From positions 1 to 38,043 of the forward strand of contig JACRCX010000015.1 of NCBI GenBank assembly GCA_016218815.1: a stretch of 38,043 nucleotides of DNA, in the 5' to 3' direction. The DNA comes from Deltaproteobacteria bacterium (GTDB taxonomy: Bacteria > Myxococcota_A > Polyangia > DRWM01 > JAAZOP01). Made by a program: the position numbers and the translations under genes. The notes below the pieces were generated by a model. It saw only the letters and a program-made list of their open reading frames with translations, was not told the origin of the DNA and did not search any database. Positions 28,701 through 38,043 of the stretch are shown here, piece after piece (position 1 is the first letter of the stretch; each line of letters begins with the position of its first letter).

Positions 28701-29017
28701 TCGCGCGCGACGACCACGTCGCCGGACTCGTTCAGGCCGCGGACATCGAACGCAATCCAGTCGCCCGGCGGGTCCCCCGCGGGATAGACGGAAGTCAGGG
28801 GCAGCGCGTGGTCCGGGGGACCGAGCACCCATCCCGCGGATGCCTCGCGCAACAGGCCGGACACCGCGGCGATTCGTGCCGTGACCTCGACCCGCGCCAG
28901 CTGCTCGGGCACGGCCATGTCGCTGGACACGGCGAGCACGACGGCGGTCTCCGCGGGGGGACTTCCGCAGCCGGACACCGCCGCGAGAATCGCGCAGGCT
29001 GGAGCGAGGGACCTCAT
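25745..29017 (-). CDS. Giant Cys-rich/FG-GAP lipoprotein, downstream paralogue
   Basis: The 1090-aa protein begins with a lipoprotein signal ending LAAVSGC (Cys 17). A beta-rich domain follows, then four Myxococcus Cys-rich (DUF4215-type) repeats of the form [18 protein letters not shown], then several MopE-like units ([12 protein letters not shown]), a CGDGCC segment, a fibronectin-like stretch ending in [17 protein letters not shown], and FG-GAP propeller blades ([15 protein letters not shown] and others). The blades carry DxDxDG calcium sites, as in integrin alpha. ATG at 29017 overlaps the stop of the upstream paralogue (ATGA). Likely an outer-surface adhesion or sensing protein. Confidence 0.85.
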
Positions 29018-32000
29018 CCCGGCGCCGCCCCCGGATCGTGCGCCGTTCCCCGCCCGAGCGCGCCCACCGCGGGTGCGTTCCGGCAGCCGGAGGTCCGGGA
29101 GGCGACCGACCACCCGAAGTAGCCCTCGGTCACCGGCGTCGGGCTCGACCAGACGGCCGGCGAGCCCGGCATCAGGCCGGCAGGGGATCCGTAGAACGGA
29201 ATGGCCTGCCCCTCGGAGCGGATCGTCACCGTGCGGAAGGGCAATCCGATGCACACGTCGTCGTAGCCGTCGCCCGTGACGTCGCCGAGCCGCGCCACCG
29301 AGTACCCGTACCACGCTCCCGCCTCCGCCGGCCGCGCCGTCAACGTCTGCCACGGGGTCGTGACCACCCCGGAGGCGGAGCCGGTGAAAACGAGCACGCT
29401 CCCCGCAGACGTCGTGCCCACGTTGTCGTGCGGTTGGCCGACAACCAGGTCCGCGAAGCCGTCGCCGTTCACGTCGGCGCAATCCAGCGACGTCCCGAAG
29501 TGCCCCATCACATGGGCCTCCGGGTCGGCCAGCACGGTCGTGGGCGTCGTCGGCAAGCCGTCCGGGCCCGACTCGAAGACGAAAACGCTGCCTTCCTCGA
29601 TGGCGGGAGCATCGTAGGTCGCGGAGCCCGCAGCGAGGTCGGGCCGCCCGTCACCGTTCAGATCGCAGCCGACCAGGGCGGAGCCGAAGCGGGCGGAGGC
29701 ACGATGGCCGGGACAGGAAATCGAGACGACTCCCGGGGCAACACCGGTCGGACTGCCCCGGTAGAGGAAGACCCGTCCCTCCTCCGAGACGACCTCCGGC
29801 TCGTTCGGCGCCGACGTCGCCACGTCGACGTACCCGTCGAGATCCATGTCGCCGACGAAAGCGACCGCGGCGCCGCAGAACGCCACGGGCGTCGTGCCCG
29901 GACAGTCGATTCGTGCGGCCGGGGAGGGACTCAACCCGCCGGCGCCGCCCAGGAACAGGAACGTCTCGCCTTCGCTGACCGATGAAATCCCGTTTCCGGG
30001 GGCCCCGACCAGCAGATCCCCGTAGCCGTCGCCGTTGACGTCGGCGCCGCCGGCCAGCGCACTGCCGAAACGACCGTTCATGTTGCAGCTCGGGTTACCG
30101 ATACTGCGCGACGGCGACGACGCGATTCCCGCGGCGGACCCGAGGTACACCAGCAGCATGCCCTCTCGGGCTCCGGTAATGCAGACGCTCCGTTTCCGGC
30201 TGCCGACCGCGAGGTCCTGGAAGCCGTCGGCGTTCAGATCGCCCGCCATCGCGACCGCCCAGCCGAACTCCCCGTGCTCCTCGGACGGCGGGGCGAGCGT
30301 GGTCTCCGCCGCGGCCGACAGGCCGCCCGTCCCTCCCATGTACACCCGGGCCGCGCCGTAGTCCGCCGGCGGAGCGCCTTCGCCCGGTGCTCCGATCGCC
30401 GCGTCGGCATAGCCGTCCCCGTTCACGTCACCCCAGCCGCGTCCGACGTCCACGTACCCGACCGCCGACCATGGCGAGCAGCGGGCGCTGCCGTCGCAGG
30501 CGCGGACCCGCCAGTAGTACCGCGTGCCCACGGGGACCGTTCGGCCCACCGCAAGGTCCGTCGGTGGACGCCACTCCGTCGCCGCCACCCCGGTCGCGGC
30601 CGCCTCCGGAGTGGCGAACGCGCAGACGGCGAAGCCCGGTGTGGAGCAGGAATCGTCCATCTGGATCTCGTAGGTCGGGGTGTTCCCGCAGCCGTCGCTC
30701 GCCGCGCGCCAGACGAAGCGAGGGCGGAAAACGCCGGAGGCCGTCGGCGCCCAGACGCTGCCGGTGAGCGTCCCGTTCAGCGGAGCGATCGGTCGAGGCG
30801 CGTCGTACGCCGGCGGTCCACAGTCACCCTCGCACCGGCAGGCATCCTCGTCGCCGTTGCAGCAGCCGTCGCCGCAGAACGGCGCTCCCGCAAGCTCGTC
30901 GACGACACCATCGCAGTCGTCGTCGACGCCGTTGCATGCCTCCGCGGGCGCGATGCAGTCCCATCCCGCCGGAACGACACACGTCGGAGCGCAGCGACCC
31001 GTTCCGATCGTGCCGCACGAAGTGGCGCAAGGAACCTCGTGGCCCGCGCAGCAGGCCGCCGGCTCGTCGCACGCGGTGTCGCAGTCGTCGTCCATGCCGT
31101 TGCACGTCTCGGCCGGCGGCACGCACGGCCCCGGTCCGCAGGTCGCGGAACAAGTCGTCGTCCCGGTCGACCCGCAGTCCGTCGTGCAAGCCTCCTCGGC
31201 ACCGCGACAGCACGCGAGACCGTCGTCGCATGTCCCGTCGCAATCGTCATCCGCACCGTTGCAGGTCTCCACGGGCGGCGAGCACGCGTCGGGCACCGAA
31301 CAGTCGGACGTGCAGGTCCTGGTCCCGGCCCGACCGCAGGTCGCGGTGCACGGCAGGACGCTCCCCGCCGCGCAATCGAACGTCTCGTCGTCCTCGCCGT
31401 CGCAATCGTCATCCACGCCGTTGCAGGTTTCGGGGGGGGCCGCGCAGGTCCAGCGGCAGGCCGCGCAGGCGCCCAGGCCGACCGTGCCGCACGACGTCGC
31501 GCAAGGCGCCCCGAACTCGCCGTCGCAATCCTCGACACCGAGCCGGATGATCCCGTCGCCGCAGCGCGCCGTCCGGCACGCCCCCGTGCAGTCGTCGCCG
31601 TCCTCCGCGTTCCCGTCGTCGCATTCCTCGACACCGACCAGGACGACCCCGTCGCCGCAGCGCGCGCTCCGACATTCCGCCGTGCAGCCGTCGCCGCCGT
31701 CCGCGTTCCCGTCGTCGCATTCCTCGTAGTCCGCATGCACGATACCGTCGCCGCATCGCGGCAAGCGGCAGTTCGCCCGGCAATCGTCGCCGTCGTCCAG
31801 GTCGCCGTCGTCGCACTCCTCTCCGACGTCCGGCTGCACGATGCCGTCGCCGCACCGTACTCCGGGCGGACCGTCGGTGGGCACGCAGACTCCGTCGAAA
31901 CACTGCTCCCCGGGCCCACACCGCACGCTCGCCGCGAGGCAGCGCCGGCTCAGGTGCACCGTGACGTCCACCGTCCGGCCGACCGTGAACGGCGCCCACA

Positions 32001-32334
32001 CCCGGTTCTCCACGAGGAAGGACCCGTCCGGAGCGAGTCCCGACACGCGGAACTCCACCCACCAGGTCCCGTCGTTCACGGGTGTCGCCGACCGTCGGAC
32101 CGGAAGCGGTTCCCCTCCGGCCCCCAACGCAACGGTGGTCGAGGACTCCGCATAGTCGGTCGCGCCGCTGCCGCCGACACGAGCGACGACCCGGAGAGCC
32201 GTCAGCTCCGCAGGGACCGAGAGGTCCGACGTCACCGTGACCCGGACGCTCGTCGTCGGTGCGGACGAACAACCCGCGACGCCCTGCAGCAACGCGGCCA
32301 GGAGGACGGCGGCCCGCTCGACCTCGCCGCGCAC
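29014..32334 (-). CDS. Giant Cys-rich/FG-GAP lipoprotein, upstream paralogue
   Basis: GTG at 32334 has GGAAGGAGG upstream. The 1106-aa product has a signal ending LLQGVAGC (Cys 22), a beta domain to about 155, four DUF4215-type repeats (about 160-295), MopE-like and other Cys-rich units to about 535, a fibronectin-like segment ([14 protein letters not shown] to [10 protein letters not shown]) to about 670, then FG-GAP blades with motifs such as [19 protein letters not shown]. The order of domains is the same as in the gene that follows, so they arose by tandem duplication. The first gene of a two-gene unit that is probably translated together. Confidence 0.85.
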
Positions 32335-32561
32335 GGCGCCTTCCTCCTTCCCATCGCACCCCACGCCGCCAGCGTCGCGCGGAACGGCGCGGGCGTCAAG
32401 CGGCCGCCGACGTGGATGCGGGCCGGCGTGCGGGGAATCGCCGAGTTGTCGGTCGCCGGTCGGGCGTGCGGGTCGAGCCGTCATTCCGGGGGCGGATTGC
32501 GCGAGGGGTTGTGTTGCGGCATGGTGCGGAGGCGGACCGGATTCGACGCGGGAGGTACGAC

Positions 32562-33782: not shown

Positions 33783-35027
33783 ATGGCGGGTGACGGAAAG
33801 CGGGAGAAGGCGCGTGCCCGGGGCGCGTCGGCGGTGGAGCCGCGGGAGCTGCTGGCGATCGTCGATGCGGAGCGCGAGCTGAGTCGGCGAGCATGGCTCG
33901 GCGCGGTGGGGCGCGTGTTCCTGGCGGGGGCGGCGTACGAGGTGGCCAGCCTGGGGTTGGTGGGTTGCGGGGCGTACCGGGACGCGTTCCGCGCGGAGCA
34001 GGGCCGAGCCTGGGAATTCGCGCGGCTGGGCGACGTCGGCCGCGCGGAGTGGGCGGATCTGCGGCTTGGGGTGACGACTGTCGAGCAGCTTGCCGGTCTG
34101 CGGTTCGAGGGCGAGGTCTTCGCGGAGCCGGAGCTGGGGCGGATCGAGCTGGTCCCGGCGGTGCGGGCGGGTGCCCCGGACGTGCCGCAGCGGATCGCAC
34201 TGGTGTTCCGCGACGTCGACGAGGCGGGCGCGAGTCTGGACGACGACGCGGTCCTGGCGCGGGTCGAGCTGGACTTCGGGCAGGGCCCGGCCGTGCGCGA
34301 GGCGGCGCGGGCGGCGTTCGGTCCGGGGGAGGAGCTGTTCTACGGCACCCAGGGGTACGCGGTGCGCGAGGTGCTGCTCTACCGCGATCGGCAGCTCCTG
34401 TGCACGGTGGACGATCCCGGGCGCGCGGAGCTGGTCGCCGTGCTGTTCGAGCCTTCGCTGCTGTATCCGCTGGTGGACGAGATGAGACTGTGCACGATCC
34501 AGTGCACGTGGTGCACCGAGGCGTGCACCGGCTGTACGGAGCAGTGCACGCTGCCGTGCACGGCGCAGTGCACCGGCTGTACGGCGGGCTGCACGTCCGG
34601 CTGCACGTCGAACTGCACGATGTGCACCTCGTGCACGTCCGGTTGCACGGCCGGGTGCACGTTCGGCTGCACCGGCACCTGCACCTCGTGCACGGGCTCG
34701 TGCACCATGGGCTGCACCTCGTGCACGTCCTGCACGTCCATGACATCCTGCTACTCCGACACGAGCTGCAGCTACTGCACCGGCTGCACGAGCTGCACCT
34801 CCGGCTGCACGTTCGGCTGCACCGGGTTCTGCACCTCGTGCACCGGCGCGTGCACCAGCGGGTGCACGACGTGCACGTGGGGCTGCACGGGCTGCACGGA
34901 CTGCACGAGCTGCACCGGGGGGTGCGAGGTGTGCACATCGTGCACGGCGCCCTGCACCACCTGCACGTCGTGCACGTCGTGCACGTCCGGCTGCACACAA
35001 CGCACGGGAGGCTTCGATGGGCGCTGA
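33783..35027 (+). CDS. Cys-Thr repeat protein, candidate RiPP-type substrate
   Basis: The 414-aa protein has two parts. Residues 1-236 are ordinary: SRRAWLG at 34-40 resembles a twin-arginine motif, and LVGC at 59-62 a lipobox, but the stretch between holds R44 and E53, so export is uncertain. A small globular region follows (LRLGVTTVEQLAGLRFEG onward; BamE-like at best). Residues 237-414 contain 47 cysteines, 44 of them followed by Thr, in CTx and CTxx units: CTIQCTWCTEACTGCTEQ and so on, with many Gly and Ser and few charges, ending QRTGGFDGR. The gene overlaps the radical SAM/SPASM gene by 11 bp. I infer it is that enzyme's substrate. Other options are a metal-binding or disulfide-rich surface protein. 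Confidence 0.85.
   Translation: MAGDGKREKARARGASAVEPRELLAIVDAERELSRRAWLGAVGRVFLAGAAYEVASLGLVGCGAYRDAFRAEQGRAWEFARLGDVGRAEWADLRLGVTTVEQLAGLRFEGEVFAEPELGRIELVPAVRAGAPDVPQRIALVFRDVDEAGASLDDDAVLARVELDFGQGPAVREAARAAFGPGEELFYGTQGYAVREVLLYRDRQLLCTVDDPGRAELVAVLFEPSLLYPLVDEMRLCTIQCTWCTEACTGCTEQCTLPCTAQCTGCTAGCTSGCTSNCTMCTSCTSGCTAGCTFGCTGTCTSCTGSCTMGCTSCTSCTSMTSCYSDTSCSYCTGCTSCTSGCTFGCTGFCTSCTGACTSGCTTCTWGCTGCTDCTSCTGGCEVCTSCTAPCTTCTSCTSCTSGCTQRTGGFDGR
34491..34997 (+). repeat. Cys-Thr codon repeat array
   Basis: This is a run of about 507 bp built from TGCACN codon pairs at 9- or 12-base steps, giving very frequent GTGCAC palindromes. Cys is always TGC. Units of three and four residues are mixed (about 21 and 23), with two longer units in the middle (CTSMTS, CYSDTS). 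The regular steps create shadow frames on both strands. Confidence 0.9.
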
Positions 35028-36450
35028 CCGGACGGCCGGGGGTGTCGCCGTGCGATGGAAAGCCTCGCCCGATCGCATCGCCCTGCGGCGCGGCGACCAG
35101 GCCCTGCTCCTGGACGGCGCGGCGCTCCGTCCGCTCCACGTGCGTCGTGGCGCCGAGCTGGTGCTGCGCGTTGCCGCGCTCGAGGAAGACCCCGGGGCGC
35201 ACCCGGCGCTGGCGGAGATGCTGTTGGAGCACGGCATCCTGCGCCGGCCGGACGGGGCGCCGCCGCGGCCGGCGCCGCGGCTGCCCCGGGGGAGTCCTTT
35301 TCCCGCGCCACGGATGTCGCTGTACCTGCTGGTCACGCACGCCTGCAACCTCGCCTGCGTCTACTGCTTCAACGGGGAGCGGACGTACGAGCGGGACCGT
35401 CCGCCGCGCATGGAGCGCGGGACGGCGGAGGCGGCGGTGCGTTGGGCGATGGCGCGGCTGGCCCGCGGGGGCGAGCTGGAGCTGGTGTTCTTCGGGGGCG
35501 AGCCGCTGCTGCGCTGGCCGCTCGTGCGCTGGGTCGTCGAGCGCGGCGAGGCGGAATGGCGCGCGCTGCGGCCCGACGTACGGCTGCGGTACCATGTGAC
35601 GTCCAACCTCACGCGGCTGCCCCGCGACCTGCCGGATGTGGCGCGCGCCGTCGGGATGACGTTCCTCTGCGACGTCGACGGCCCTCGCGCGGTGCAGGAC
35701 GAGCTGCGGCCGCGTCGTTCGGGCCGGTCGAGCCACGCGGCGACCGTGCGGGCGATCGGCGAGCTGCGCCGCGCCGGTCTTCGTGTGGCGCTCCGTGCGA
35801 CGATCACGAGCCGGAACGCCGGCGACCTGCCGGCCGTCGTCGAGCATCACGCGGCGCTCGGCGGCGCCTCCAGCGCGCTGGTGCCGCTCAACCCCGTGTC
35901 CTCCGACCGCGTCGCCGTGCGAAGCTCGCTCCTGGCGCCGGCCGATGAGCTGGCGCGGGGGCTGGGGGCGGCGTTCGACGCGGGGCGGTTCCGGCCCGAG
36001 GAACTGCACCCATTCAGCGAGGCGGTCGGCCGCGTGCGCCGGCGCGAGCCGCGCCGCATCGCCTGCGGTGCGCCGTTCGGTTGCACGCCCACGGTGGATG
36101 CGCGGGGGGATGTCTACCCGTGCATTTACTTCGTGGGCATTCCGGAGCTGCGCATGGACAACGTCCATGCGCCGGAGCCGGAGCGCGCGGCGCAGGTGCT
36201 GGATCGGGTGCTGCACCAGGTCGACGTGGACGCCGACGAACGCTGCCGTTCCTGCCCGCTGCGCTACGTGTGCGCGGGCGGGTGCCCCGCGATGCTGGTG
36301 TTGACCAGCGACCGGCCGGCGCTGGACGGGATGCGCGAGTACGCGCGGAGTGCGAGCTGTGCCGTCGCGCGGACGGTGACCGAGCGGCTATTGTGGCTGG
36401 AGGCGGAGGGCCGCTCGCCGGCACGCCGATCGGACCGGAGCGCCGGGTAG
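35017..36450 (+). CDS. Radical SAM/SPASM peptide maturase
   Basis: The 477-aa protein has the radical SAM cluster motif CNLACVYC (Cys 110, 114, 117), which binds the [4Fe-4S] used to split S-adenosylmethionine. FFGGEPLLRWP matches the GGE motif. A C-terminal SPASM region has CGAPFGC (350-356), YPCIYF and CRSCPLRYVCAGGC for further clusters. Residues about 9-80 (RWKASPDRIALRRGDQALLL) may be a PqqD/RRE-like domain that holds precursor peptides. Relatives modify peptides, for example forming thioether links from Cys (sactipeptides, ranthipeptides, SCIFF). ATG at 35017 has GGGAGG upstream and lies inside the end of the Cys-Thr repeat gene, so the two are coupled. Confidence 0.9.
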   Translation: MGADRTAGGVAVRWKASPDRIALRRGDQALLLDGAALRPLHVRRGAELVLRVAALEEDPGAHPALAEMLLEHGILRRPDGAPPRPAPRLPRGSPFPAPRMSLYLLVTHACNLACVYCFNGERTYERDRPPRMERGTAEAAVRWAMARLARGGELELVFFGGEPLLRWPLVRWVVERGEAEWRALRPDVRLRYHVTSNLTRLPRDLPDVARAVGMTFLCDVDGPRAVQDELRPRRSGRSSHAATVRAIGELRRAGLRVALRATITSRNAGDLPAVVEHHAALGGASSALVPLNPVSSDRVAVRSSLLAPADELARGLGAAFDAGRFRPEELHPFSEAVGRVRRREPRRIACGAPFGCTPTVDARGDVYPCIYFVGIPELRMDNVHAPEPERAAQVLDRVLHQVDVDADERCRSCPLRYVCAGGCPAMLVLTSDRPALDGMREYARSASCAVARTVTERLLWLEAEGRSPARRSDRSAG

Positions 36451-36477: not shown

Positions 36478-37863
36478 TCAGAGCAGGATGGTTTCGCAGC
36501 CGAACTGGACGTCGACGCGGGTGGTCGTGCCGCCGGTCGGCTGGACGCGCTCGCAGGTGGCGGGGCAGAGGACGACGGCGGTGGGGGCGGACTCGTCGTC
36601 GTAGTACCAGCCGCCGCGGTCGTCGCAGTCGGCGGCCGAAGGGACCTTGTAGACCGCGACGCTGCCGCTGCCGTCGTCGACCAGGACGTTGATCATGTCG
36701 CGCTGGAAGGTCTCCCCCGGCGGCGGCTCGGGGATGGAGATGGTGCAGTCGACGCGGCTCGCGCGCTCGACCGCGGTCGCGACGCCGTCGAAGAAGGGGC
36801 CCCAGGCGGCGGGTCCGTCGCAGATCTGCGCGCGCACGCCGCTGCGGCGCGACACCAGCTCGGTGTAGGTCGGGCCGCTGGAGGGCGGCTCGGTGCCGTC
36901 CGAGTAGGTGCAGGGGACGCTCCGGTCGGTCTCCGAGCCCCAGCCGTAGAGGGCGCTGAAGGTGTAGCCGTCGAAGAGGCCGCCCCAGCGCGGATCGAGG
37001 ATGCCTTCGGGGAGCGTCAGCCCGTTGAAGGGGTTGCTGCCGTCGGCGACGTCGGTCGTCGTCTCGAACCAGTCCGCCGTGGCGACGGGATCCCCGGTCG
37101 CCCCGCCGCTGGGACCGGCGACGAAGACGCCGCCCGAGCGCTCGACCAGGCGCGCGTTGTCGTCGCTGACCACGACGATGGTCTTGGTGGCTTCCGGTCG
37201 CAGGAGGTCGAGCCACGGGTCGCTGCCGCGCTCGTCGAGGACGGTGTAGCCGGCGGTCTGGCCGAGGGTGCCGAGAAACTGCTCGAGCGGCTGGGTGGAG
37301 CGGATGTCGACCTGCACTTGGTAGAAGAGGGGAGGGTTGTCGGCGCAGGAGGCGCCGGCGAGGGGCGGGGGGATGCAGACCTGGAAGCGGGTGCCGCCGG
37401 CGGTGGTGGTCTCGCCGACGCCGCGGAGGCTGAGCATGAGCACGCGGTAGTCGAGGCCGGCGCCGCCGACGAGCGTGGCGAAGTCGTTGAGCCCGGCCTG
37501 TACCTGTTCGATCGCGGGACGCATGCTGGCGGAGTTGTCCACGACCCAGATGATGTCGACGGGCAGGCGTTCGACGACGGCCTCGACGCTGGCGCTGGTG
37601 CAGGCGGCGTCGGGGTCGAGCGTGGTCTCTTCGGCTTCGGCTTCCGCGAGGTCGATGTCGGAGCCGTCGTCGGCGTCCGCATCGCCGCCTTCGGGCGCGT
37701 CGTCCACGTCGGCGCCGGGATCGACCGCGCCGTCGTCGGGGTGGGTCGCGACGTCGTCCGACGCGGGTGGCTGGGCGCACCCGGCGAAAAGCAGCGCCCC
37801 CAGTGCCGACGCGAGGCGGAAGGAACCGTGTTTCGTACTGCGGTGATGTTCGATACCAGTCAT
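36478..37863 (-). CDS. VWA-domain lipoprotein
   Basis: ATG at 37863 follows GGAAGG. The 461-aa protein has a signal ending ALLFAGC, an Asp/Ala-rich spacer (DDGSDIDLAEAEAEE), then a von Willebrand A domain: IIWVVDNSASMRP carries the DxSxS metal site, and IVVVSDDNAR supplies the later Asp. The later half has several cysteines and ends FGCETILL. VWA domains bind proteins through a metal ion. The gene converges on the radical SAM gene with only 27 bp between. Confidence 0.85.
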   Translation of the reverse strand: MTGIEHHRSTKHGSFRLASALGALLFAGCAQPPASDDVATHPDDGAVDPGADVDDAPEGGDADADDGSDIDLAEAEAEETTLDPDAACTSASVEAVVERLPVDIIWVVDNSASMRPAIEQVQAGLNDFATLVGGAGLDYRVLMLSLRGVGETTTAGGTRFQVCIPPPLAGASCADNPPLFYQVQVDIRSTQPLEQFLGTLGQTAGYTVLDERGSDPWLDLLRPEATKTIVVVSDDNARLVERSGGVFVAGPSGGATGDPVATADWFETTTDVADGSNPFNGLTLPEGILDPRWGGLFDGYTFSALYGWGSETDRSVPCTYSDGTEPPSSGPTYTELVSRRSGVRAQICDGPAAWGPFFDGVATAVERASRVDCTISIPEPPPGETFQRDMINVLVDDGSGSVAVYKVPSAADCDDRGGWYYDDESAPTAVVLCPATCERVQPTGGTTTRVDVQFGCETILL

Positions 37864-37936
37864 GATCGCCTTCCGCACCCCGCTCGACCCCGACGCAGGA
37901 TAGCCTAGAGCACCGACCGGTTTGAAACCAGCATCA

Positions 37937-38043
37937 TCAAGCCGCCTTCCGCTGTCCGCGCGTCTCGCGCTCGTCGAGGCAGTGCTGGATCTTCTCGAAG
38001 TTCTGCACCGTCGCTGCTCGCCGCACATCGTACAGGTTCTTCC
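37937..38043 (-). CDS. C-terminal fragment of a gene beyond the window
   Basis: The last frame before the right edge ends with TGA at 37937-37939 and reads KNLYDVRRAATVQNFEKIQH and on to GQRKAA. It has the codon bias of a real gene but is too short to identify. Confidence 0.4.
   Translation of the reverse strand, partial: KNLYDVRRAATVQNFEKIQHCLDERETRGQRKAA

Follow-up and report, generated by a model that had tools for sequence, protein, structure and literature searches.

Two kinds of radical S-adenosylmethionine (SAM) maturase offer the closest described parallels to the system reported here. As described in PMC8326336 and PMC9413430, the SCIFF maturase CteB makes a Cys-Thr thioether in SCIFF, where one link has been identified and the Thr acceptor is reported to lie five residues downstream, and the ranthipeptide maturase PapB makes six links in PapA, with Asp or Glu acceptors, a Cys-to-acceptor offset of i+4 and an in-line or nested arrangement. 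The nearest named target family is TIGR04117 of NCBIfam (Syntroph_Cxxx, Cys-Xaa-Xaa-Xaa repeat radical SAM target protein), and a further SPASM maturase family, the Cys-every-fifth CefB (NF038107), is named for regular Cys spacing. Titles and abstract openings of the open-access papers that literature searches listed contained nothing describing Cys-Thr (CT) arrays, TIGR04117 or CX3T links. Here we describe a gene pair on a 38,043-nucleotide stretch of a Deltaproteobacteria bacterium (contig JACRCX010000015.1, positions 1 to 38,043, analyzed whole and called the window below), in which a protein ending in a long CT array is encoded next to a radical SAM/SPASM enzyme. The pair is of the radical SAM thioether kind of ribosomally synthesized and post-translationally modified peptide (RiPP), and what is unusual is the size of the substrate and a core carried on larger, probably exported proteins. 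From the sequences, we lean towards a RiPP-like pair whose enzyme would lay overlapping Cys(i)-Thr(i+4/5) thioethers like a ladder along the 47-Cys array before export by the twin-arginine translocation (Tat) route.

The CT-array/enzyme pair is real. Precursor and enzyme have GC contents at third codon positions (GC3) of 0.92 and 0.90, respectively, as expected at 71% GC, and therefore fit real genes. Their open reading frames (ORFs) bear out the preliminary description of this locus, which had read a 414-residue protein with 47 Cys in its last 178 residues and about 44 CT units, overlapping a radical SAM/SPASM gene by 11 bp (Table 1). Thr follows directly on 44 of the 47 Cys; successive Cys are spaced by four (23 times), three (21 times) or six (twice) residues; and 43 of the 75 residues that are neither Cys nor Thr are Ser or Gly, a filler consistent with close packing. 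The DNA of the array is an imperfect repeat, its copies mostly 60–76% alike and one 85%. The overlap of the two ORFs probably couples their translation, and overlaps of 8 bp and 10 bp, taken from the likeliest starts, are found with reversed gene order in the related loci L010 and L017. Profile searches of Pfam and NCBIfam gave no match for the array protein, and an AlphaFold2 model of precursor residues 1–236 (mean predicted local distance difference test [pLDDT] 46.8) was too poor for a fold search. A BamE-like identity considered for the middle region was unsupported by any match, EF-G alone appearing, at E 0.19 or worse.

Conservation in the one homologue found for the window precursor points to Cys and Thr. 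Scoring the 7995 candidates with most words in common among 5.8 billion proteins returned, besides the window protein itself, only P0002, which is 59% identical and sits on a 3267-base contig. The two align without gaps over the last 178 residues, where all 47 Cys and 46 of the 50 Thr are kept, vs 36 of the 81 other residues. Because Cys and Thr persist in this way at 59% overall identity, both their position and their identity are under selection. By eye, the lipobox-like LVGC is also present in both proteins.

The window leader, SRRAWLGAVGRVFLAGAAYEVASLGLVGC, resembles a twin-arginine signal whose end is specific to the family. Many precursors have in common the N-terminal motif RRxFLxxxGKxxLxTAxYxxxSVF, and the Tat profile TIGR01409 matches 10 of 47 at E up to 0.1. 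Variants carry KG in place of RR (L012) or end in ASLYVGG (L017) or VSLYGGG (L020), and L008 has no leader. TatC is present in the window genome, and from its sequence the precursor is predicted to be exported. As in other RiPP systems, a precursor gene with a conserved leader adjoins the gene of a modifying enzyme, and the same leader is probably what this enzyme reads.

With its Cx3Cx2C motif and seven SPASM Cys, the enzyme belongs by definition to the radical SAM/SPASM proteins. The seven SPASM Cys are invariant in a 24-row alignment; in 94 rows C350 stays invariant and the other six are kept in at least 90%. PF04055 matched in Pfam and the NCBIfam SPASM domain TIGR04085 scored above its cut-off, with the Pfam SPASM model PF13186 below its own. 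The AlphaFold2 model is confident (pLDDT 93.7), and CteB is its best match both by fold and by PDB sequence search, followed in fold by anSME, SkfB, SuiB and TigE. Model residues 17–466 align to CteB residues 1–450, and this alignment through the CteB N-terminus supports a predicted RiPP recognition element (RRE) at the front of the enzyme, in agreement with the preliminary description.

Profile and fold searches place ranthipeptide/SCIFF-type maturases nearest to the enzyme, and the PapB, SCIFF and QhpD profiles are among those matched most widely across its family. It reaches no maturase equivalog cut-off among the best 25 of 69 families in NCBIfam release 20; against the nif11-like peptide maturase TIGR04064, for instance, it scores 141.6 bits, below the cut-off of 518.7. 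It shares the RRE, radical SAM and SPASM layout of CteB/ScfB (TIGR03974) but scores 113.3 bits against a cut-off of 425, and whereas the SCIFF peptide has six Cys in about 45 residues, the window protein has 47 in 178. The PapB profile (NF047865) matches all 94 members of the enzyme family, yet the window enzyme gives 140.9 bits against 340. Regular spacing is also a feature of CefB, but here the score is 55.4 bits against 600 and the window spacing is three or four with Thr. On the substrate side, TIGR04117 picks up shorter relatives by their leader and Cys-rich tail (25 of 47 precursors reach E 0.1 or better, the lowest being 7e-10), but the scores listed for relatives, 12.8–30.9 bits, lie below the 50-bit cut-off and the window protein is unmatched. 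No TIGR04117 member over the cut-off was found in the 17, 395, 3 and 39 genomes searched, so that no true member was at hand for comparison. Part of this target kind is thus already known to NCBI through TIGR04117, a model that the window protein fails. The earlier suggestion of a possible new system is tempered by this, by the SCIFF/ranthipeptide-type nearest enzymes and by the weak TIGR04117 matches of many shorter relatives.

Screening 84,980 species genomes for the enzyme family left 79 loci, 17 of which were treated as one family with the window enzyme (L008–L023 at E 2e-61 or better, and L025, nearly identical to L023). Chains with six or more Cys, three or four residues apart, occur in L008, L012, L014, L016, L017, L020 and L025; the carrier of L017 is Desulfatibacillum alkenivorans DSM 16219. 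Short Cys cores stand behind the same leader in L010 and L011, and L015 has a Tat-like short-Cys ORF. The other 62 loci (L024 and L026–L086) contain no chain of six Cys; weak four-Cys chains are present in L033 and L051. On a further contig of the L022 genome, array L099 starts 11 bp beyond an enzyme gene represented by its C-terminal part, and the L009 genome carries arrays L088 and L098 on other contigs. Altogether an array or precursor adjoins the enzyme in ten loci, the window included. The system is rare and spread over seven phyla (Myxococcota, Planctomycetota, Verrucomicrobiota, Fibrobacterota, Bacillota, Pseudomonadota and Thermodesulfobacteriota), and in a tree of 31 hand-chosen rows with no outgroup the array-bearing rows are scattered over deep branches. 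Precursors reach about 700 residues and 47 Cys, and the proteins that carry the arrays are dissimilar, with TPR in L012, LRV/HEAT in L017 and no recognized domain in L008, L014, L016 or L020. MAFFT lines up the middle region of L014; BLASTP aligns significantly the leader alone (E 0.002).

Reading of the loci and further contigs revealed no precursor for L013, L018, L019, L021 or L023. The first three are one clade, L021 is sister to the array-bearing L017, and the contig of L023 ends upstream. L013 (4433–7401) and L019 (5962–8902) each hold two tandem enzyme-family-like ORFs with no visible array. In L025 (4492–4810), the precursor leader and CT core lie in different frames; P0097 and P0099 are intact relatives. 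In the L022 genome, L090 (1–2975) encodes a protein that ends in a Cys-His array (CHSA/CHDA repeats), with a radical SAM-like ORF of a different sort behind it; the two may be a parallel array system. L093 (1–1731) has an 84-residue protein with an RR leader and regular CxxxC next to yet another kind of radical SAM-like ORF.

Arrays and enzyme also occur together at the level of genomes. Profile A8, which combines leader and array and was counted at E up to 1e-4, matches 12 of the 18 enzyme-carrying genomes. G379, G383, G388, G391 and G395 match without contributing rows, and P0097 and P0099, which are in A8, are near relatives of the G395 array. Among 377 same-phylum genomes, an enzyme match at E 1e-50 or better is confined to the window genome, and three match A8: the window genome and those with L121 and L122. 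L121 (a simple repeat) and L122 (ferredoxin-like) were rejected as arrays on reading, as was L120, an extra, ferredoxin-like A8 match in G385. Fisher's test on 12 of 18 vs 2 of 376 gives p = 7e-17, which is a guide only because of shared ancestry and the composition of A8. An array profile used before it, A4, found no match even in the genome of the window (G000), whose array it thus missed, so that its absences are weak evidence, and it was replaced by A8; its matches L103 (in the L014 genome), L104 and L105 were rejected as simple repeats or another protein kind. The proposed coupling of the array to the SPASM enzyme is therefore supported by ten adjacent loci, a common leader and genome co-occurrence. 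The converse pattern, CT arrays widespread without the enzyme, did not appear: with profiles that are not fully sensitive, a genuine array was detected in none of the 376 genomes of the phylum in which the enzyme went undetected, and the coupling is not refuted.

The placement of Cys and Thr appears to fit a rule joining Cys to a downstream Thr slightly better than it fits a bare CT dipeptide, a unit that would predict no Thr past +1. Thr stands at +4 or +5 of 46 of 47 Cys in the window protein and of 47 of 47 in P0002. Inside a chain this follows from the spacing, so the informative cases are chain-end Cys, those with no Cys within four residues downstream (a chain being at least three Cys at most four apart). 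The pool comprised 65 precursors (the window protein, P0002, nine locus ORFs and 54 search matches, with L015 and L025 outside it). Sixteen with an RREFFK..LP leader, together with P0126, P0130, P0138, P0149 and P0150, were set aside and counted apart; de-duplication at 70% reduced the remaining 44 to 26, and restoring L008, which it had dropped, made 27. In these 27, 28 of 39 chain-end Cys have Thr at +4 or +5, though no Cys precedes that Thr, as in CTQRT (window and P0002), CISFT (L016), CTGYT (L017), CTTMYT (L020) and CTQVT (P0097). By offset, Thr occurs at +2 in 4/39, +3 in 1/39, +4 in 25/38, +5 in 6/37, +6 in 0/30, +7 in 2/25, +8 in 5/25 and +9 in 3/25; +4 is far over background, and +5 alone is not (p 0.08). 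The proportion is 43/59 in all 44 precursors and 18/25 with one terminus per protein and the window protein and P0002 removed. A decayed repeat would leave Thr as often before the first Cys of a chain, where it is found at −2 in 6/38 and −3 in 3/38. Thr directly follows the first Cys of the chain in 12/38 cases and the last in 30/38. Thr is therefore displaced one repeat downstream of Cys, as Cys(i)-Thr(i+4/5) pairing predicts.

A mechanism can be proposed in which precursor and enzyme are made by coupled synthesis and the twin-arginine-like signal doubles as the leader, held by the RRE-like domain. In the cytoplasm, repeated hydrogen abstraction by 5′-deoxyadenosyl radicals at successive Thr would form the links, while an auxiliary cluster would bind the Cys in the way suggested for CteB. 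Tat export would follow once the protein is complete; in this species it would remain anchored to a membrane by the lipobox-like Cys62, and in others the signal would be cut at AxA-like sites. The small exported domain would end in a rod that is stiff, poor in thiols and resistant to proteases. The crosslinked surface structure suggested in the preliminary description would be a possible outcome. A stronger version, in which one enzyme lays some 46–47 staples with the Tat signal as leader and the family forms a protein-scale class of polymer-like rods on unrelated exported proteins, is held tentatively, and we give it a little less belief than doubt.

Several observations weigh against the thioether ladder. 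The SCIFF ring position is itself disputed between Thr37 and Thr34. The window protein is unmatched by TIGR01409. Six of the 18 enzyme genomes (those of L013, L015, L018, L019, L021 and L023) are unmatched by A8, and near those six enzymes no precursor is seen except the ORF of L015. A8 itself includes rows contributed by seven of the 12 genomes that it matches, as well as P0097 and P0099, near relatives of an eighth. The same-phylum enzyme search scored about four candidates per genome, so a divergent enzyme may be missed, and all p values are guides only because the sequences are related. The array protein is absent from the three other same-genus genomes compared, which makes the pair patchy even within the genus. 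As to the rule, 11 of the 39 chain ends have no Thr at +4 or +5 (L008, L012, L014, L016, L098, P0102 twice, P0104, P0119, P0131 and P0148), nor does C377 of the window. Orphan Thr favor +4 (25) over +5 (6), yet the four-spaced interior units, about half of the total, need +5. The group with the RREFFK..LP leader breaks the rule, following it in one of nine chains. The five assorted proteins that were set aside follow it in two of eight chains. The short Cys-rich proteins with the RREFFK..LP leader include P0106, P0110, P0112, P0114, P0117 and P0125.

Some sactisynthases use Thr acceptors, and the first alternative has the enzyme modify the same residues by other chemistry: C-alpha (sactionine) thioethers, ether formation or dehydration at Thr, or links between distant strands. 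We judge this unlikely, though far from negligible: anSME, SkfB, SuiB and TigE also match the fold and sequence cannot tell the carbon position, but PapB, SCIFF and QhpD, the widely matched profiles, are those of non-alpha thioether makers, and the downstream +4/+5 offset favors short local rings. It is improbable that the array is instead a metallothionein- or Csp-like domain for metal binding or storage, with the enzyme making a minor change or acting elsewhere. Extreme Cys density and predicted export would suit such a domain, and two further proteins of the window have putative MopE-type metal-binding motifs (one match exceeding the cut-off, one short of it); against it, Thr is kept nearly as strictly as Cys and frequently occupies +4/+5 without a Cys directly before it, and arrays accompany the enzyme across phyla. 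Insect antifreeze proteins contain CT-rich repeats, and an ordinary disulfide-rich or beta-helical repeat beside a coincidental enzyme gene could look similar; a PDB sequence search with the array found no match at E up to 1, although low-complexity queries are insensitive, and the ten adjacent loci and genome co-occurrence make coincidence unlikely, leaving this reading very improbable. A GC-rich DNA repeat that is open in a single frame, without protein selection, can practically be dismissed as the source of the array, since, for all that tandem repeats are detectable and simple repeats imitated arrays in L103, L104 and L121, the GC3 of 0.92, the imperfect DNA repeats and the 47 ungapped Cys of P0002 at 59% identity contradict it.

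Table 1. Features of the CT-array/enzyme locus (window positions)
Feature	Position	Strand	Basis
CT-array precursor protein, 414 aa	33783..35027	+	ORF, composition, homologue P0002
Radical SAM/SPASM maturase, 477 aa	35017..36450	+	PF04055, TIGR04085 above cut-off, AlphaFold2 model, CteB best fold match
Precursor stop/enzyme start overlap, 11 bp	35017..35027	+	ORF coordinates
Leader, residues 34-62: twin-arginine-like SRRAWLG, family motif AAYEVASL, then lipobox-like LVGC	33882..33968	+	Leader common to relatives; lipobox by eye
Middle region, residues 63-236, no known domain	33969..34490	+	No Pfam/NCBIfam match; common to P0002
Cys-Thr array, residues 237-408, 47 Cys, 46/47 with Thr at +4 or +5	34491..35006	+	Sequence count
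RRE-like N-terminal domain, about enzyme residues 17-90	35065..35286	+	
Radical SAM Cx3Cx2C motif C110 C114 C117	35344..35367	+	94-row alignment: C117 invariant; C110, C114 at least 90%
SPASM region, seven Cys C350 C369 C410 C413 C419 C423 C448, predicted two auxiliary 4Fe-4S clusters	36064..36360	+	Alignments

Elsewhere in the window, positions 29014–32484 (minus strand) encode a large FG-GAP protein that also matches TIGR02232 (myxo_disulf_rpt), a Cys-rich repeat, and positions 36478–38028 (minus strand) encode a protein that contains a VDIIWVVDNSASM stretch, looks VWA-like by eye and has no Pfam match.

If the thioether ladder is true, the array would be among the most heavily cross-linked enzyme-made peptide chains, with nearly eight times the six links of PapA, and the linking rule predicts each bond directly. 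The enzyme could then serve as a tool for making multiply stapled peptides. A Tat signal doubling as a RiPP leader would explain the order of cross-linking and export, and radical SAM stapling would extend past short peptides to long covalent rods on exported proteins.
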